DNA of 64,000 nucleotides from Desulfonatronum lacustre DSM 10312 (GTDB lineage Bacteria > Desulfobacterota > Desulfovibrionia > Desulfovibrionales > Desulfonatronaceae), in NCBI RefSeq assembly GCF_000519265.1, contig NZ_KI912608.1, positions 3,009,313 through 3,073,312 on the forward strand. Reading direction: 5' to 3'. The notes under the pieces are model-generated. The model was not told where the DNA came from, did no database searches, and saw only the letters and a list, made by a program, of their open reading frames with translations. The translations under genes and the position numbers were made by a program. Positions 24,265 through 32,899 of the stretch are shown here, piece by piece; the stretch's first letter is position 1, and each line of letters starts with the position of its first letter.

Positions 24265-25047
24265 TCACACAAACGGCATGAGCAGCAGCTTGCGGAGTTT
24301 TTGGAAGTTCGCGTCGCGGAAAATGTTCAGGCCGATGGGCATGTGTTCGTGGCCCTGGGCGGGCTGGTCCTGGTAGGTTCGAAACAGGCGGTCCCACCAG
24401 GGGAAGTTGAACCCGAAGTTCCTGTTCGCTTCCTTCATGTTCGTGGAGTGGTGAACTCGGTGCATGTCCGGCGTGACCACCAGCCGCCGCAGCCGGGCGT
24501 CCGCGGCCAGGGGCAGACGGATGTTGGAGTGATTGAACATGGAGACGCCGTTAAGCATGATTTCAAAGACGATCACCGCCAGGGCCGGTGGCCCCAGGAC
24601 AAGTACAACCAGCAACTTGATGCCCATGGACAGGATGTATTCCAGGGGGTGAAAGCGCACCCCGGTGGTCAGGTCGAAGACCGTGTCCGCGTGGTGCACT
24701 CTATGGATGCGCCACAGGGGTATCCAATAGTGCAAGGCCCGGTGCTGGAAATAGATGACCAGGTCAAGCAGCAGCAGGCCCGCGATGAACTGCCCGGGAT
24801 AGGGGAGGGGCACGTTGTTCAGCAGCCCCCAGCCCCGCTCCGTCGCCAGCAGGGCCAGCCCCACGGGCAGGACCGGAAACAGGATGCGCAGCAGCAGCAA
24901 GGAGCCCGCGACCAGGCCGAGGTTGCCCACCCAGCGGATCATCCGTTGGGGAGGCGTTCGCCGACGAGGAAAGAGGTGCTCGGCGATCCCGAAGAGCAGC
25001 AAAGCGCCCGCGAAAAACGCCAAACGCCACCAGTGTTCGTGTTCCAT
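24265..25047 (-). CDS. sterol desaturase / fatty acid hydroxylase-family protein
   Basis: A 260-residue membrane protein starting at MEHEHWWRLAFF; ATG 25047 has GGAGAA at the right spacing, and the frame extension to 25173 overlaps the upstream gene. Three His clusters for a di-iron site are present: HRALH, HRVHH and a second HRVHH, plus HSN. The fold has about four helices. Family members use O2 to hydroxylate lipids, so its presence in an anaerobe is notable. It is the last gene of the selenoprotein operon, 47 nt after the previous stop, so it may share its regulation. The substrate is unknown. Confidence 0.85.
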   Translation of the reverse strand: MEHEHWWRLAFFAGALLLFGIAEHLFPRRRTPPQRMIRWVGNLGLVAGSLLLLRILFPVLPVGLALLATERGWGLLNNVPLPYPGQFIAGLLLLDLVIYFQHRALHYWIPLWRIHRVHHADTVFDLTTGVRFHPLEYILSMGIKLLVVLVLGPPALAVIVFEIMLNGVSMFNHSNIRLPLAADARLRRLVVTPDMHRVHHSTNMKEANRNFGFNFPWWDRLFRTYQDQPAQGHEHMPIGLNIFRDANFQKLRKLLLMPFV

Positions 25048-25094
25048 GCGCTTCTCCGCGATGCCCGGTTGATGGCCTTTCTCCGAACCGCCGG

Positions 25095-25409
25095 TCAGGA
25101 GAAAATGCGGCTCAGGAAGCCTTTTTTCACCTTTTCCGGTTCCGGCAGGCCCAGGTGTCGGCAGATGCAACACTCCAGCTCGTGCTCATCCACGTCCTTG
25201 CCCTCGACCACGATCTCGTCGTTGACCATTACAGCCGGCGCCACGGGCAGATCCAAGGCAAAATACTCGTCAGTGGAGTACTCCGCGATGGGCTTGGAAA
25301 TGGTCTCCACCTCAATGGCGTATTTCTCGCCCAGACCGGGCGAGATTTTCAGGAAATGCTTTCAAGGTTTGCCTCGTGGTTCGTTCAGAAAAAACCGTAC
25401 CAGGACCAT
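25095..25409 (-). CDS. thioredoxin-like selenoprotein A (UGA = Sec16)
   Basis: The frame from ATG 25409 reads MVLVRFFLNEPRGKP, then UGA (25364-25362), then KHFLKISPGLGEKYAIEVE and on to a stop at 25095, giving 104 residues with Sec at 16. AAGGAGG precedes the ATG. The protein is a close paralog of selenoprotein B immediately upstream, with the UGA at the same residue. The downstream half (DLPVAPAVMVNDEIVVEGKDVDEHELECCICRHL) resembles the cis-Pro loop region of thioredoxin-like folds. The sequence just after Sec lacks a CxxC partner; two Cys pairs occur near the C terminus. A hairpin with a GGUCU loop follows the UGA. Function unknown; a redox role is inferred. Confidence 0.82.
25325..25345 (-). 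promoter_or_regulatory. candidate bacterial SECIS hairpin of selenoprotein A
   Basis: An 8-bp perfect stem (TCTCGCCC / GGGCGAGA on the minus strand) closes a GGTCT loop. The loop begins 24 nt after UGA 25364-25362. A GGUCU apical loop is the classic SelB-binding feature of E. coli fdhF-type SECIS elements. Confidence 0.75.
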
Positions 25410-25700
25410 TCAATGGCCTCCTTGGATTGTGGGGTCCGCGTCCAATTGATCCCGCACCGCCGCGAAAATCTGACCTTCCTCCATAAAACCGCCGCTGATG
25501 AGCACGTGGTCGTTGATCATGATTCCGGGAGCCACCGGCAGGCCGAGACTTTTGTACGCCTCGGTGTGAAACTCCTCGCGGGGTTTGGAGACGATCTCCG
25601 TTTCCACGCCGTTAAGCCGGCCCAACCTGGGCAGCACGGACAGATAGTGCTGTCAGGTCTTGCCCCGGGGTTCATTCAGAAAAAAACGCACCTTGACCAT
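25410..25700 (-). CDS. thioredoxin-like selenoprotein B (UGA = Sec16)
   Basis: ATG 25700 lies 7 nt after GGGAGG and 2 nt beyond the stop of the rhodanese-DsbD gene. The frame reads MVKVRFFLNEPRGKT, UGA (25655-25653), QHYLSVLPRLGRLNGVETE and ends at 25410, one base before gene A starts: 96 residues with Sec at 16. The segment before UGA matches gene A almost residue for residue, which shows that it is coding. GLPVAPGIMINDHVLISGGFMEEGQIFAAV gives the cis-Pro loop and last helix of a thioredoxin-like fold. No other Cys is present, so the selenol would act alone or with a partner protein. Family not recognised. Confidence 0.83.
25620..25632 (-). promoter_or_regulatory. candidate bacterial SECIS hairpin of selenoprotein B
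   Basis: A short stem GCCC/GGGC (minus strand) closes an AGGTT loop containing GGU. The loop starts 24 nt after UGA 25655-25653, the same spacing as in gene A. Confidence 0.55.
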
Positions 25701-25702
25701 GA

Positions 25703-27457
25703 TCATTCCTCCCGTGAATCGGTGTTGAGCAGTTGATCCATGCGCCCTGCGAAAGCCTCAGGGGCGAGAAAGTCCACCAGCCGCAGGTCCGGGCGCTCTC
25801 GGCCCCGGGCGTCGAGAAAGACGATGGTCGGCACGCCGCGGACCCGGTACTCGCGCAACAGCCGCTCATGCAGCGGATTGCCGCCCCGGGTCACGTCGAT
25901 CTTGATCATGACCATGTTCCGAGCGCGTTCGACCACGTCCGGATGGTGGAAGGTCACGGCTTCCAGCTCCCGACACGGCGCGCACCAGGTGGCGGAGAAG
26001 TCGATGATGACCGGCTTGTCCTGTTCCCGGGCCTGTTCCAGCAGTCTTTCGGAATAGGGCTGCCACTCCACCCCGGCGCCGCGTACGGCCCAGGAACCCA
26101 CCAGGAGCACGGCCAGAAGCAGCCCGGCCAGGCCCACGCCGTTCTTGATCCAGGGGAAAGCTCGAAAGGTAGCCGTGGAGCGGTCCACCCAGGCCAGATG
26201 CACGGCCGCGGCCATGGCCACCCCGACCATCAGGAACAGGCCCCAGGGCTCGCCCAGCAGCGGGCGGACGAAATAGGCGGCCATGCCCACCAGGACCCAG
26301 CCCATCAGCTTGCGCACCCAGATCATCCATTCCCCGGAGCGGGGCAAACGCTGGAGGTTGCCGGAAAACACGGCCAGCACGAACAGCGGGATGCCCAGAC
26401 CAAGACTGAGGGTGAAAAAGACCAGAAAGCCGATCCAGGGGCTGCCCATGGTCGCCACCCAGGTCAGCAGACCCAGGACGAACGGCCCGATGCACGGCGC
26501 GGCCACCACGCCCAAAGTCAGGCCCATGAACAGGGTGCCCACGTACCCGGCCCGGGATTTGGACGCGGCCCGGGTCAGGGCCGCGGGCATGCGCAGCTCC
26601 CAGAAGCCGAACAGGCTCATGGCAAAGGCCACCAAAACCAGGGCGATGACCCCAAGGACCAGAGGATTCTGGAGCAGCCCGCCCATCAAGCCCCCGGTCA
26701 TGGCCGCCACCGTGCCCAGGATGGAATTGGTCAGGGCCAGTCCGCCGATGTACAGCAGCCCGTGGGCGATCAGCCCGGCCTTGCCCTGCTCGTCCCGCCC
26801 GGCGAAATAGGACACGGTGATGGGAATCAGCGGATAGACGCAAGGCGTCAAATTCAGGGCCATGCCGCCGAAAAAGATGCCCAGCAGGGTCCAGACCATG
26901 GCCCAGCCGGACAAGGGGCCCGGCGCTTCCGGAGCAAACGGGGCCTCGGCGTGGCCGTCGTCGAACTCTGGCAGGGTGGCTGCCGTGGGATACCCTTTCT
27001 CCTCCCACTCCCGAAAACCCAACGGATCGCGATAAACGTTCACATAACCCAAGGAGACGGCCACCCGGGCCGCCGAGTCGCTGCGGACTCAGGCCAGACC
27101 GTCTCAGTAAAAGACGATGGTCCGCTCCTTGTCCTCGCCCAGGACGGCCCGCAGGTCGTCTTTCTTGCTCCATCTGGCCCACCAGGTGGGTTCCATGGAA
27201 AAGACCACGGCCCCTTCCATGTGCCCGGGGGCGAACTCCCATTCCTGGCGGGTGTCCACCAGCAGCAGGTCCGGGTCCCTCTGGTACAGCTCCCAAAGCT
27301 CGTCCGTGGTGATCACGCCGTACCCGCCGCGCTCGGCCTCGGCCAGGACGTCGTCCCAGCCGGCGTCTTGCGGCGTCACGGCCCGGCTGGTCAGCCACAG
27401 GGCGCTTCCGGCGGCGATCACGAAAAGAAGAAGTCCGAGTACGATGCGCTTCGACAT
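25703..27457 (-). CDS. rhodanese-DsbD-thioredoxin fusion selenoprotein with two Sec
   Basis: The frame from ATG 27457 (site AAAGGAGG) continues through UGA at 27106-27104 and 27091-27089 to a stop at 25703, giving 584 residues. Residues 1-24 form a signal anchor. A rhodanese domain follows (about 40-165) whose catalytic loop reads TIVFY-U118-DGLA-U123-VRSDSAARVAVSLGY; related rhodaneses carry Cys at both positions. About eight helices of the DsbD/CcdA type follow (190-455), with redox Cys in LTPCVYP (206) and AAPCIGP (322). The C-terminal thioredoxin domain has WCAPC (492, 495). Both soluble domains should be periplasmic. I infer electron flow from cytoplasmic thioredoxin through the membrane domain and WCAPC to the selenol rhodanese. 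Confidence 0.88.
27057..27073 (-). promoter_or_regulatory. candidate bacterial SECIS hairpin of the rhodanese fusion
   Basis: A CGGCC/GGCCG stem (plus a G-U pair) closes a CGGGT loop on the minus strand. The loop starts about 21 nt after the second UGA (27091-27089) and 36 nt after the first, so one element may have to serve both. Confidence 0.5.
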
Positions 27458-27486
27458 GACGGCCTCCTTTGGGGTTGGAATGCGGC

Positions 27487-27948
27487 CTACTTGATCCGGC
27501 CTTCATGCCGCAGCTTTGCCAGGAGGAAGTCGGCCCCGGAGCGGGAAAGCCCTACGGCTTCGGCCACCTGGTCCGCTTCCAGAGTGCCCGAACGGGCCAT
27601 GTGCAGCACTTCCTCCTCCAGCTCTTCCAGCCAGTTCTCGAACAGCACCAGGATTTCCGGGTGAGCGATGGCCATCAGCTGCCGGGAGCGGGCCACCTTG
27701 TCCACAAGGCTTTGGCACATTTTTGTTGGATCGACACCTTCGTCCATGCATTCGGCCAGTCAGAGGTGGACCATGCTGCTGACCTTGTCTTCCCCCTGTT
27801 CCGTGCCTTGCCCCCCGGTCATGCCGACGATGATTGTCAGCCGCTGTTCGTCGGAAAGCAGGGGAAAGACCTCCGCGGCCGCGTCGGCCACGACCCGGGC
27901 CGCCTCTTCCGGAGGCATGGTGCGTAGGATGTTGCGAAAGTTGTTCAT
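27487..27948 (-). CDS. unknown selenoprotein with Sec63-x3-Cys67
   Basis: The frame from ATG 27948 runs MNNFRNILRTMPPEEAARV to SSMVHL, UGA (27762-27760), LAECMDEGVDPTKMC and on to 27487, giving 153 residues with Sec63 and Cys67 four residues apart; another Cys is at 78. The first 60 residues are helical. The last 80 include a predicted helix pair (PEILVLFENWLEELEEEVLHMA) and a winged-helix-like end (LEADQVAEAVGLSRSGADFLLAKLRHEG). Without readthrough the locus would be two unexplained fragments in one frame. I do not recognise the family. It lies 18 nt after the ArsR gene and 29 nt before the fusion gene, clearly in one operon. Confidence 0.78.
27727..27746 (-). promoter_or_regulatory. candidate bacterial SECIS hairpin of the unknown selenoprotein
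   Basis: TGGA-CGA and TCG-a-TCCA (minus strand) form a 7-bp stem with one bulged A around an AGGTG loop holding GGU. The loop begins about 20 nt after UGA 27762-27760. Confidence 0.6.
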
Positions 27949-27966
27949 TGTCGCTTGTCTCCGTGG

Positions 27967-28293
27967 TCAAAAGGATTTTTTCTCGGCAAGCAGAGCCTGG
28001 GCCAACGCGCTCAAGGTCCGCAGGATGAACAGGATTTCCTCGGAAGCCAGGGTGTAGAAGATGAAGGGCCCGCGCCGCTCCACCCGGACCAGCAGGGCCC
28101 GCTTGAGTTCCTTCAGGTGATGCGAGACCAGGGGTTGGGAAAGGTCCAGGACCTCGGCGATCTGGTTCACGGACTGCTCTCCTTGACCCAGGTGACACAA
28201 AATCCGCAGCCGGTTGGCGTCGGACAGCACCTTGGACAGAAAGGCCGCGTCGGCGAGTTGCTCTCGGGGAATGCAGGCAGGCTTCGTCATCAT
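27967..28293 (-). CDS. ArsR-family winged-helix regulator
   Basis: A 108-residue protein with the ArsR fold: LSKVLSDANRLRILCHLGQGEQSVNQIAEVLDLSQPLVSHHLKELKRALLVRVERRGPFIFYTL. The recognition helix is QPLVSHHLKELK. A Cys sits in the RILCHL helix, as in persulfide-sensing BigR/SqrR and in ArsR-type arsenic sensors, and another is at residue 7; the second conserved Cys of SqrR is not seen. It heads the selenoprotein operon, 18 nt before the next gene, and is the likely repressor. The inducer might be sulfane sulfur, a metalloid or selenium; this is inference. Confidence 0.92.
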   Translation of the reverse strand: MMTKPACIPREQLADAAFLSKVLSDANRLRILCHLGQGEQSVNQIAEVLDLSQPLVSHHLKELKRALLVRVERRGPFIFYTLASEEILFILRTLSALAQALLAEKKSF

Positions 28294-28313
28294 GACCTCA
28301 ACGAGAAATAAGC

Positions 28314-28335
28314 ATATAAACAGATATTGATATAT
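28314..28335 (-). promoter_or_regulatory. AT-rich candidate ArsR operator
   Basis: atata (28314-28318) and tatat (28331-28335) flank a 12-nt AT-rich core with further gatatt/gatata repeats, directly upstream of the ArsR start. ArsR-family operators are often AT-rich inverted repeats of this size. Not otherwise verified. Confidence 0.4.
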
Positions 28336-28465
28336 TGACTGGAAACGATACGGTCAAGGGCTGGAGCGAAATGGATTTCAACTCGCGGTTGACTTAAATT
28401 GATGGATTGATTCATAGATGAAGGAACTATTCAGCACATCCTGGGTAGAGCCTCATCCCGATGCT

Positions 28466-28541: not shown

Positions 28542-28764
28542 GACGCTTATACTCGGATGAACCGGTAGTTACGAACAAACATAATCGCAATTTCCGTCCG
28601 GGATTTTTTCCCGTCTCCCGGGATTTTCTTCGTCTAGAATTAGGAGATTCCCCTACAGACAAGACCAACCTACATGCTATTGAGTTGGTATGCTTTTCAC
28701 GCCCAGGCGCACGGCTGCGGTCAATTATCAGTTCCACCCCAACATCCTTATCAAGGAGGTCGGC

Positions 28765-30081
28765 ATGAAGCGCAAGATTACCGTACTGGTTATGGCGGGT
28801 TTTTGGATAGCGGCCGTGGGGCTTTTCGCCTGCGGCAGGGAGCAGGCCGTGGATGTTCGCGAGGTCAAGGCCCAGCCCAAGGAATTCGTCGGATCGGACA
28901 CCTGTCGCAACTGTCACCTGGAACACTACGACTCCTGGAGAATGACCCTGCACAGTCGGATGCTCATCGACGTGCGGGAGAACCCTTACGCCATCCTGGC
29001 GGATATGAACCCCGACCTGATCCGGGCCGACCTGGAAAAGGTCAAGGACCGGCTCAAGGTTCCGGTGGAGGACGTCTACATCCCGACCAAGGATGAAATC
29101 CTCTACACCATCGGCACGCAGTGGAAACAACGCTACATCGTCCAGAAAGACGGCAAATATCATGTGGCGCCGGTCCAGTACAATATCGCCACCAAACGCT
29201 GGGTCAACTATTACGACGACGCCTGGGACAAGCGGGACTGGCTGGTGCGCTGCGGCGGTTGCCACGCCACGGGCGTGGACCTGGACAACTACACGTTCGC
29301 CGAGACATCCATCGGCTGCGAGGCCTGCCACGGCCCCGGCTCGCAACATACGGCTCTTCCACGCACTGCTTTGTTCGAGAAACGGGAAACCATCATCAAC
29401 CCGGCCAAGCTCACCGCGGGCATCGCCGTGCAGATCTGCGGCTCCTGCCACACCCGTGGCAATGCCAAGCATGAAACGTACCCTGAAGCCGGCTGGCCCG
29501 TGGGGTTCACCCCGGGCATGGTCATGGAGCCGATTTATGAAAGCTCCTACGACAAGGCGGACATGCGGCGTCTTTACCCGGACTACGCTTCCCGCTCACA
29601 CCACCAGCAGTATATAGACTGGATGCAGTCCGAGCATGCCGTGCAGGGCGTGACCTGCACCTCCTGTCACTCCGTACACCGTCTGGGTATTTCCCCCACC
29701 AGGTTCCAGACCAAGGAAGCCGGGTCCAGCCAGTGTCTGAGCTGCCATACCATGGTTAACGCCAATCGGGCCCATTCCATCCATTCCTTCGCCAACTGCC
29801 TGGGCTGTCACATGCCGCGCATCGCCAGCACGGCCGAGCCCAACGACATCCGCAGCCACACCTTCAACGCCAGGGCGCCCATGGACACCATTGACGACCC
29901 GAACCTGCCCAATTCCTGTCAGATTTGCCACTATCACAAGGACGACGATCTGGCCGAGTTGCAGCGTAAGTATGAAATCCTGACCCAGTTGCCACAGCCC
30001 CAAGGAATGATGATTCCCGCGGTAACGTACGATACATTCACGGAACGTCCCGGAACCGCTCCCGTGGCCAGCCCGGAATAA
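28765..30081 (+). CDS. octahaem c-type cytochrome lipoprotein
   Basis: A 438-residue exported protein starting at MKRKITVLVMAG; ATG 28765 follows AAGGAGG. A lipobox (VGLFAC) suggests a lipid anchor after cleavage near residue 22. Eight CXXCH motifs are present in order: CRNCH, CGGCH, CEACH, CGSCH, CTSCH, CLSCH, CLGCH and CQICH. The layout, with CEACHGPG early and a spread second half, resembles cytochrome c-554-like multihaem proteins. The two genes downstream encode a trihaem cytochrome and a cytochrome b, so this is probably the periplasmic end of a quinol-linked electron-transfer complex. The electron acceptor is not known. Confidence 0.92.
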   Translation: MKRKITVLVMAGFWIAAVGLFACGREQAVDVREVKAQPKEFVGSDTCRNCHLEHYDSWRMTLHSRMLIDVRENPYAILADMNPDLIRADLEKVKDRLKVPVEDVYIPTKDEILYTIGTQWKQRYIVQKDGKYHVAPVQYNIATKRWVNYYDDAWDKRDWLVRCGGCHATGVDLDNYTFAETSIGCEACHGPGSQHTALPRTALFEKRETIINPAKLTAGIAVQICGSCHTRGNAKHETYPEAGWPVGFTPGMVMEPIYESSYDKADMRRLYPDYASRSHHQQYIDWMQSEHAVQGVTCTSCHSVHRLGISPTRFQTKEAGSSQCLSCHTMVNANRAHSIHSFANCLGCHMPRIASTAEPNDIRSHTFNARAPMDTIDDPNLPNSCQICHYHKDDDLAELQRKYEILTQLPQPQGMMIPAVTYDTFTERPGTAPVASPE

Positions 30082-30117
30082 TGTTCAGGGGAGATTCAAA
30101 CCAACAAGGGGGATGTC

Positions 30118-30792
30118 ATGATCATCAAAAAAGCGACGCCCCTGCTCTTCATTCTGATGCTGCTCCTGCCCGAACCGGTGTTCGGGCAGGAGGAGATGGC
30201 CTCCCGGTACTACCGCTATCGCAGCACGGAAATGAGTACGGGCGTTTACGAGGAGTACGAAGTCCGACCCCGGTCCATGGGCCGGGTCGACGCCGTCGGG
30301 GAAGTTCAGGGCCGAGGCCTCAGCAGGATCGACGAAGAGGAAAGCCGGGCCTTGAACCGGATGTTTCTGAACGACGCGCACCAGGGGCTGCGGTTTTACG
30401 AACAACGCCGCTGCGTGTCCTGCCATGTCGAGGAGGCGCGCAACAACCGCCACTACGTCCGGCACGGCATCACCTGTCGCCAGTGCCACGGCGAGGAGCC
30501 CATCGCCAGCAGCAACCACTTTTTTTCCCGGTTGAACAACATTCGCCAGCATACCCACGTCTGCGCCAAATGCCACGAAGGAGCCTCCGCCTCCTTTGCC
30601 CTGTACAAGGTGCACGAGCCCAATCCGGCCATGATCAGCACCGCGGACGTTCTTCCGCTGCTGTTTTATGCCTTCTGGATCATGATCGCCGTGGCCGTGG
30701 GCACCTTTGCCCTGTTCCTGCCGCACACCTTCTTGTGGGGCGTGCGGGAACTGTTCATCAAGAAAGCGAGGTCCGACGATGAGCAGCACTGA
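30118..30792 (+). CDS. membrane-anchored trihaem c-type cytochrome
   Basis: A 224-residue protein. A signal peptide (MIIKKATPLLFILMLLLPEPVFG) leads to a periplasmic domain with three CXXCH sites: CVSCH, CRQCH and CAKCH. A C-terminal helix (VLPLLFYAFWIMIAVAVGTFALFLP, about 178-202) anchors it, with a short basic tail inside. It lies 36 nt after the octahaem gene and overlaps the cytochrome b start by 14 nt. It may bridge haem b in the membrane and the octahaem protein. Confidence 0.9.
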   Translation: MIIKKATPLLFILMLLLPEPVFGQEEMASRYYRYRSTEMSTGVYEEYEVRPRSMGRVDAVGEVQGRGLSRIDEEESRALNRMFLNDAHQGLRFYEQRRCVSCHVEEARNNRHYVRHGITCRQCHGEEPIASSNHFFSRLNNIRQHTHVCAKCHEGASASFALYKVHEPNPAMISTADVLPLLFYAFWIMIAVAVGTFALFLPHTFLWGVRELFIKKARSDDEQH

Positions 30793-31621
30793 GAGCAGCA
30801 CTAACGCCAAAATCCGGATCAAGCGGTTCACCGCGACGCAACGATTGTTTCACTTGGTGCTCATGGTCACCTTCCTGGTCCAGTCCGCCACCGGGCTGGC
30901 CAGGATGTACCACGAGACGGCCTGGGGGCAGGGTCTCGGGAATATTTTCGGCGGATTCGAGGCCTCCCTGACCGTGCACATCTACGTGGGCATCTTCATG
31001 GTCTGCGCGTTCGTGGTCCATGTCCTCTATGCACTGCTCAACATGGTCATCAACCGAACCGGCCTGTTCGGGCCGGATTCCCTGCTGCCCCGGTTCGCCG
31101 ACCTGAAGCAGGCCGGGCAGCACGTGGGCTGGATTCTCGGTCTTTCCAGGCATCCGCCGTTGGATCGCTGGGGATACTGGGAAAAATTCGACTATTGGGC
31201 TGTTTTCTGGGGTATGGTCATCCTGGGCGGGACCGGCCTGCTCCTGGCCTATCCCCTGGCGTCCAGCAACTACATGCCCGGCTGGGGGCTGAACGTGGCC
31301 TTCTGGGTGCACCGCATCGAGGCCATCCTGGCCATGGCCCATATCTTCGTCATCCACTTCTTCATCGCCCATCTGCGGCGCAGCAACTTCCCCATGGACC
31401 GGACCATCTTCCAGGGCAGCGCGGACCTGCGCGTCGCCGCGCACGAACGTCCGGCCTGGTTGGCCCGGCTGAAGGAATCCGGCAAGCTGGACCAGATGAT
31501 CGTGGGGGAGGCTCCGGTCTACAAACGGGCCGTCTTCCTGATCATCGGCTTCGCCGCCGTGGCCGCCGGCGTGTACATGCTCATCGGCGGGCTGGTTCAC
31601 GCGCCCCTGATTACGTGGTGA
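30779..31621 (+). CDS. membrane cytochrome b subunit
   Basis: A 280-residue protein starting at MSSTESSTNAKIRIKRFTATQRLFHL; ATG 30779 follows GAGG and overlaps the previous gene. Four helices with His residues suited to haem b are seen: RLFHLVLMVTFLVQSATGLA, LTVHIYVGIFMVCAFVVHVLYAL, WAVFWGMVILGGTGLLLA with WVHRIEAILAMAHIFVIHFFIAHL. A fifth helix ends the protein. It resembles the b-type subunits of formate dehydrogenase/hydrogenase and the octahaem-type complexes of sulfate reducers. It probably oxidises or reduces menaquinol for the two cytochromes c. Confidence 0.88.
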   Translation: MSSTESSTNAKIRIKRFTATQRLFHLVLMVTFLVQSATGLARMYHETAWGQGLGNIFGGFEASLTVHIYVGIFMVCAFVVHVLYALLNMVINRTGLFGPDSLLPRFADLKQAGQHVGWILGLSRHPPLDRWGYWEKFDYWAVFWGMVILGGTGLLLAYPLASSNYMPGWGLNVAFWVHRIEAILAMAHIFVIHFFIAHLRRSNFPMDRTIFQGSADLRVAAHERPAWLARLKESGKLDQMIVGEAPVYKRAVFLIIGFAAVAAGVYMLIGGLVHAPLITW

Positions 31622-31717: not shown

Positions 31718-32899
31718 TCACTGATCCACTTCACTGATCAGGGCGCCGTAGCCCTGCTCTTCCATCTCTTCGATTGGGATGAACCTCAGCGCCGCGGAGT
31801 TCATGCAATAACGCAGGCCGGTTGGAGCCGGACCATCGGCGAATACGTGTCCCAGATGAGAGTCCGCGTAGCGGCTGCGGATTTCGGTGCGAACCGAAAA
31901 AAAGCCTCTGTCTTCTTTCTCCACCACCCAATCCGGGTTGATAGGTTTGGTAAAGCTGGGCCAGCCGGTGCCGGAGTCATACTTGTCGCGGGATGAGAAC
32001 AGCGGTTCGCCGGATACAATATCCACATAGATACCCGGCCGCTTTTCATCATTGTATGCGTTCTTAAAGGGGGGCTCCGTACCGTCTTTTTGGGTGACGT
32101 TGTACTGCACCTTGGTCAGCCGAGCCCTGAGTACCCTGTCGTCCGGTTTTTCAAAGGTAGCGGGGTTGAATCCCTCCACCTGGATTTGCCGACGGTTGGA
32201 TTCGCCACGATCAGCCTGCCCGGGGCCATCACCGATTTGCGGACGATACCGGGAGTAATCTACTTCCATATCTTCTCCCCAGACGGATTCGATGAATTGG
32301 TAGCGTCCCGAGTTGAAGGTATAATACTTGTAGCGCAGCGGATTTTTCTTGGAGTAATCCTGGTGGTACTCCTCGGCCTCGTAGAAGACTTTGAAAGGGA
32401 CGATCTCGATCACGACCGGAGCGGCATAGCGGCCGGACTCCTCCAGTGCCTTCACTGAGGCTTCCGCGGCCAGTTTCTGCTCCTGGTCATGATAGAAAAT
32501 CGCCGGGCGATATTGCCTGCCGCGGTCCACGTACTGGCCTTCGGCATCCGTGGGGTTGGCGGTCCGCCACAGCGCCTGAAGCAGTCCTTCGTAGGTGATC
32601 ACCGTTGGGTCATAATAGACCTGTACGACCTCGGTATGGCCGGTGCGACCACCCGCGACCTCCTTGTAGGTCGGGTTTTTCTCTTCGCCTCCGCTGTAAC
32701 CGGATACCGCCTCGACCACGCCGGGGACTTTTTCAAAGGCTTCCTCCACACACCAGAAGCACCCACCAGCGAAGGTGGCAAGAGCCAGATCACGATCGAC
32801 CGGGGCATACTTCGAGTCCATGTCGCTGGAAGCGCTCAGTTGGAATCCCGCCAATGCCATGACAGCCGCTGTGAACATCAGGAACAGATACCGTTTCAT
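31718..32899 (-). CDS. msrAB: exported bifunctional methionine sulfoxide reductase MsrA-MsrB
   Basis: A 393-residue fusion with a signal peptide ([24 protein letters not shown]). The MsrA domain starts at [15 protein letters not shown], with the catalytic Cys in GCFWC and EYHQDY. The MsrB domain contains [20 protein letters not shown] and the catalytic [11 protein letters not shown]. The usual CxxC zinc pairs of MsrB are absent. The protein repairs oxidised Met of periplasmic proteins, both S and R forms. A two-component system lies just upstream on the same strand, 81 nt away, and may induce it, as reported for other periplasmic Msr systems. Confidence 0.95.

Follow-up and report, generated by a model that had tools for sequence, protein, structure and literature searches.

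A 'three selenoprotein operon' with TsoA, TsoB, TsoC, TsoX and TsoY is listed in a 2026 review (PMC13188914) citing Haft and Tolstoy 2025; as cited there, the Tso system was named in 2025 (Haft and Tolstoy, mSystems e0141724). NCBIfam holds named models for TsoA, TsoB, TsoC and TsoR (accessions in the list below), and our literature search found no further paper on Tso function. We compared with this system a run of genes in a window of 64,000 nt (the whole stretch of DNA analysed here), taken from a Desulfonatronum genome that forms a single contig of 3.76 Mb. The initial annotation had described six closely spaced minus-strand genes between 28293 and 24265, four of them with five in-frame UGAs, and all of its coordinates proved exact; its view that the gene set was undescribed does not stand, given the review and the NCBIfam models, which cover every gene of the run except the last. 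The genes are as follows.

27967..28293, minus strand: tsoR, ArsR-family regulator without a conserved cysteine (82-TsoR alignment); NF045707, 132 bits against a cut-off of 115
27487..27948, minus strand: tsoA, predicted LULAxC selenoprotein, Sec63 at TGA 27762-27760; NF045695, 201 bits (200.6) against a cut-off of 170
25703..27457, minus strand: tsoB, signal anchor, rhodanese, DsbD-type membrane domain and thioredoxin with CAPC; NF045694, 971 bits against a cut-off of 805
25410..25700, minus strand: tsoC1, predicted NEPxGxxU selenoprotein, Sec16 at TGA 25655-25653, divergent clade in the tree; NF045708, 103 bits against a cut-off of 45
25095..25409, minus strand: tsoC2, predicted NEPxGxxU selenoprotein, Sec16 at TGA 25364-25362, main clade, predicted thioredoxin-like fold; NF045708, 142 bits against a cut-off of 45
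24265..25047, minus strand: last gene of the run, fatty-acid-hydroxylase-family membrane protein (PF04116, 106 bits), tso-linked in ten loci

Judged by its sequence, the locus is the tso (three-selenoprotein) operon in a TsoR-A-B-C-C form, with a membrane hydroxylase-family gene added. The tso genes adjoin in one operon behind TsoR, the same order is found in many loci, and several of the starts are preceded by ribosome-site-like sequence (aaaggagg, gggagg, aaggagg). The five in-frame TGAs, which start at 27762, 27106, 27091, 25655 and 25364, are spread over four neighbouring genes. That these genes are complete only when UGA is read through, as initially proposed, is confirmed by the family profiles, which continue through the TGAs (TsoA residues 5-150, TsoB 9-576 and both TsoC), and by the retention of UGA at the same columns across loci. 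Within the genus Desulfonatronum, a TsoA match was found in only 4 of 8 genomes. In another Desulfonatronum (L055:642-1267) the tsoA frame is broken and tsoB is down to a short match, the same remnant is present in a same-genus genome (L095, G003), and at L094:9423-10078, also in a genome of this genus, an intact tso operon is followed downstream by the remnants of a second tsoB end and a second tsoC.

We followed the UGA codons through 87 non-redundant loci, obtained by merging 38 loci from a contig collection with those of the 46 genomes, out of 395 sampled from the phylum, in which TsoA or a relative is present (33 above the model cut-off). Firstly, U stands in the Sec column of 85 of 91 TsoA sequences, the three Cys that align there seemingly coming from distant, badly aligned relatives, and of 59 of 60 TsoC sequences; among the approximately 31 TsoB sequences with letters at the two Sec positions, 30 have U at both. 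The initial annotation had expected Cys homologues at these positions; no clear Cys orthologue of TsoA, TsoB or TsoC was found among the ~87 loci in searches that read U as C and should find one. The Tso families hence look Sec-only, and the absence of Cys forms suggests a chemistry that truly requires a selenol, in what would be a selenium-expensive system. Secondly, the Sec machinery called for by the initial annotation is encoded in the genome: selA (611 bits), selB (366 bits), selD (333 bits) and a tRNA-Sec with anticodon UCA. The selD gene (L018, G000:C1:15288) has an in-frame TGA near its own start (SAAGUASK) and likely encodes a selenoprotein itself. Thirdly, folding of the stretches that follow the UGAs gave these predicted elements.

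27727..27746, minus strand: tsoA, predicted SECIS-like hairpin, apical loop AGGTG, 20 nt past the UGA; loop and spacing kept in most orthologues
27053..27103, minus strand: tsoB, two successive predicted hairpins after both UGAs, with loops CGCAGC and CGGGT, whose statistics are less strong than those of the tsoA and tsoC loops
25614..25652, minus strand: tsoC1, post-UGA stretch with a predicted SECIS-like hairpin, loop GGT
25324..25361, minus strand: tsoC2, post-UGA stretch with a predicted SECIS-like hairpin, loop GGTCT

We dropped the generic bSECIS rule, which uses loop, spacing and MFE: in this GC-rich window 158 of 300 random TGAs satisfy it, and tsoA itself does not. Because random TGAs so often satisfy the rule, the window alone would not reveal a SECIS-like signal, and a comparison of orthologues was used in place of the rule; Rfam SECIS_1 (RF00031) gave zero matches here and zero in all control genomes and is therefore uninformative. 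An apical loop N0-1G[GU] is present in 68 of 78 TsoA sequences (usual spacing 20 nt) and 57 of 59 TsoC sequences (usual spacing 25 nt), against 8 of 73 real TGA stops of the same genes taken as a control. Synonymous codons are frozen exactly at the predicted SECIS loops: GGT for Gly +8 of TsoA in 73/78 (background 16%), AGG for Arg +9 of TsoC in 53/53 (background 14%), CCC for Pro +8 of TsoC in 55/55, and GAC for Asp +9 and GCC for Ala +12 of TsoB in 30/30 each; the loci being related, p-values of the loop and codon statistics overstate independence. Such freezing is beyond the reach of amino-acid conservation and can be explained by an RNA signal. We conclude from these codons that the putative SECIS-like RNA elements of the tso genes are under selection, which is strong sequence evidence for Sec decoding of the Tso families. 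The sel genes, the SECIS-like signals and the frozen codons thus indicate, indirectly, that the four tso products carry selenocysteine.

TsoB carries Sec118 and Sec123 within its rhodanese domain, in the motif UDGLAU (UxxxxU; TGAs 27106 and 27091). Pfam recognises Rhodanese, DsbD_TM (PF02683, 144.7 bits) and Thioredoxin_7 with CAPC; hydropathy places a signal anchor at residues 5-23 and, with a simple threshold, recovers only 6 of the expected membrane segments. From the N-terminal MSKR, read by the positive-inside rule, and the DsbD precedent, the rhodanese and thioredoxin domains are probably periplasmic. The two TsoC proteins are paralogues with U at residue 16 in each, as the initial annotation had recognised; they are 42% identical. 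They fall in different old clades, each with relatives in other families (tree with midpoint rooting only), so that tsoC1 would be no recent duplicate. The predicted TsoC model (pLDDT 92.9) has a thioredoxin-like fold, for which a fold search returned thioredoxins at Z 8-9.6 (rmsd ~2.5, ~80 residues aligned); Pfam Thioredoxin_3 matches below its cut-off only. In our reading of the model, the Sec of GxxU may take the place of the second cysteine of CxxC.

TsoA, with LULAEC in the window, is all-helical in the predicted model and ends in a winged-helix-like part; its invariant residues are U63, C67, G71, P74, M77, F103 and W106. The model is less certain for the N-terminal part that bears the Sec (pTM 0.49), and the fold search found winged helices only, matching the C-terminal third; by sequence, neither TsoA nor TsoC had a significant match among solved structures. 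In many loci there is no TsoB in the vicinity of TsoA, whether or not TsoC is present, which suggests that the membrane step is not always locally coupled and that the cytosolic part can do without TsoB or use one encoded elsewhere in the genome. More distant relatives of TsoA were also seen. Some have a Met-rich stretch and U (MVERUM; L139:8904-9146, L140:8896-9138, L142:3829-4071) and adjoin a VTT gene and a TsoR-like ArsR, as well as an ArsM-type selenoprotein gene in L139 and L140. Short TsoA-like proteins in L136, L137, L141 and L143 keep the C-terminal domain, but begin with a Met-rich stretch and lack a UGA within the matched part. A second class of TsoA-like selenoproteins (UINECTD or similar) occurs at L065:6062-6550, L083:2794-3279, L134:3223-3723, L131:5651-6124 and L135:5-460; in L065 and L083 a normal tso operon occupies the other strand, and the gene of this second class has its own ArsR.

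TsoR has an ArsR-type winged helix (PF01022, 51 bits; NF033788, general ArsR/SmtB, 81.5 bits against a cut-off of 55). Two features precede its gene.

28309..28338, minus strand: operator-like palindrome of 30 bp (TCAATATATCAATATCTGTTTATATGCTTA) upstream of tsoR, the sole such site in the window
28329..28357, minus strand: sigma-70-type promoter TTGACC-17-TATATC, its -10 inside the palindrome; the sole match of a pattern search for which 0.01 matches would be expected in the window

In about 50 of 82 loci, the DNA before tsoR has a palindrome with a consensus near CATATAAAT-N4-ATTTATATG that scores above 10, which no shuffle did. The natural inference is that TsoR binds this palindrome and represses its own operon. 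The initial annotation had placed the locus under ArsR control; the ArsR-fold regulator in front and the conserved palindrome over the promoter uphold this, and cysteine-based sensing of arsenic, metals or persulfide finds no such backing. The alignment of 82 TsoR has no conserved cysteine, the best Cys column reaching 31/82, which makes it unlikely that TsoR senses its signal in the usual way, through a metal thiolate or a cysteine pair, and classical arsenic/metal or persulfide sensing through TsoR cysteines is not supported. We claim no regulon beyond tso, since weak genomic palindromes are about as many as control matches; one other site with two mismatches lies at 1532013, near an unrelated-looking small gene. 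A 117-aa protein of no known family is encoded directly upstream of tsoR in seven loci (L086:6668-7021; also, among others, L062, L064, L088, L092 and L102). The putative operator offers a direct handle for finding the inducer of Tso.

Among the neighbours, a hydroxylase gene is near tso in ten loci of several families. Close homologues of this hydroxylase occur in 16 of the 46 tso-positive and 44 of the 349 tso-negative genomes (Fisher p 3e-4, relatedness ignored), within ~4 kb of tsoA in four of those 16; the link with tso looks real but optional, that of a frequent, dispensable neighbour. A VTT-domain protein is encoded near tso in 18 loci, on the same strand every time, and an SQR-like flavoprotein, a NapH-type ferredoxin, an ArsM-like methyltransferase, DUF5714 and TsoY in 7-9 loci each. 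These neighbours point to redox chemistry of thiophilic substrates, without choosing between sulfane sulfur and metal(loid). Two further features of the window were noted.

28690-31621: divergent cytochrome operon for three proteins, namely a multihaem cytochrome c, a smaller protein with haem motifs and a cytochrome b that resembles formate dehydrogenase gamma
31718-32899: msrA/msrB-like fusion gene, its product starting with a signal-like stretch

The cytochrome operon was rejected as a part of Tso, blastn having found no matching DNA in the other tso loci compared.

The odds seem to us slightly in favour of a scheme in which tso encodes a transmembrane selenol reductase (TsoB) and cytosolic selenol partners (TsoC and TsoA), in an operon repressed by TsoR. 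The anatomy, decoding signals, promoter and palindrome are seen in the DNA; electron flow, topology and repression belong to the proposed scheme. TsoR would bind the palindrome and keep its own operon silent. Electrons from cytosolic thioredoxin would pass through the DsbD-type membrane domain of TsoB to the periplasmic CAPC thioredoxin, and from there to the Sec118-xxxx-Sec123 pair of the rhodanese domain; once reduced, these selenols would act on a thiophilic substrate in the periplasm, either sulfane sulfur or a soft metal(loid), by reducing or accepting it. Two cytosolic selenol partners would belong to the same path: TsoC, with its thioredoxin fold and single Sec, and TsoA, a helical protein with a UxxxC motif. 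Of the membrane-linked selenol relay in the initial annotation, the membrane link agrees with the rhodanese and DsbD-type domains of TsoB, and the relay itself is a reasonable proposal. For the substrate, sulfane sulfur and a thiophilic metal(loid) are our best guesses.

The first of these is a serious possibility that falls short of probable: Tso would reduce persulfide or polysulfide, or move it across the membrane, in sulfur-metabolising anaerobes. The rhodanese domain of TsoB speaks for it, as do the SQR-like flavoprotein and NapH-type ferredoxin that adjoin tsoA-tsoC in several Desulfobulbaceae-type loci and the TauE family in two neighbours. However, BigR/SqrR-type persulfide sensors use conserved cysteines, which TsoR lacks, and the SQR-like neighbours score far under the cut-off of the SQR selenoprotein model. 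Rather less likely is a system that detoxifies or transforms As, Se, Te or Hg. The ArsR family of the regulator, the ArsM-like methyltransferases in 7 loci and the distant TsoA relatives, some Met-rich, that adjoin ArsM-type and MbdU-type selenoproteins would fit such a role, but TsoR has no conserved metal-binding cysteine, a Pfam scan found neither a transporter nor a known resistance gene in the window's operon, and these links belong to the distant relatives, the core operon being without them. We consider it unlikely that Tso is a selenium version of DsbD/ScsB for general periplasmic thiol or oxidant repair: DsbD_TM, the CAPC thioredoxin and the nearby msrAB gene agree with this, yet TsoB misses the DsbD model (257 bits against a cut-off of 330), a rhodanese stands in place of the N-terminal domain, and the operon includes neither a periplasmic Dsb partner nor one for c-type cytochrome maturation. 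Finally, we give next to no probability to a reading of the TGAs as ordinary stops, as debris of frameshifts or as errors of sequencing: UGA is usually a stop and the generic rule alone is no proof, but dozens of assemblies have these TGAs in common, the frames are open on either side of them, and the synonymous codons downstream are frozen.

Returning to the transmembrane selenol reductase, a fuller version is more tentative, and we hold it doubtful as a whole: Tso would be a distinct transmembrane reductase that carries cytosolic electrons to a periplasmic di-selenocysteine rhodanese site, uses exclusively selenoproteins, is controlled through a dedicated palindrome by an ArsR repressor without conserved cysteines, reduces a thiophilic substrate in a step not yet described, and has a lipid-modifying accessory in some lineages.

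Compared with described systems, TsoR shares the ArsR fold with BigR/SqrR and other ArsR/SmtB regulators, but reaches only 52 bits with the BigR model (cut-off 155) and lacks a conserved cysteine. TsoB shares with DsbD (PRK00293 / NF001419) the DsbD-type membrane domain with its cysteines and the C-terminal CxxC thioredoxin, but scores 257.5 bits, under the cut-off of 330 of NF001419, and has a di-Sec rhodanese domain in place of the N-terminal acceptor domain. TsoX and TsoY (NF045809 and NF047643) are further selenoproteins, present in 8 and 4 of 49 searched genomes with tsoA or a relative, often near tsoA; the profile search did not find them in the window's genome. We conclude that Tso is a known but uncharacterised system and that the observation is sound, to which our analysis adds mostly support: the conservation of UGA, the frozen codons, the palindrome, the lack of a conserved cysteine in TsoR, the hydroxylase link and the two TsoC clades. 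With the described Tso system the locus shares five core genes that all exceed their cut-offs, the arrangement of these genes as one operon, and the UGAs in the defining motifs; it differs in having two TsoC of different clades and a terminal hydroxylase gene, each of which is also found in other loci.
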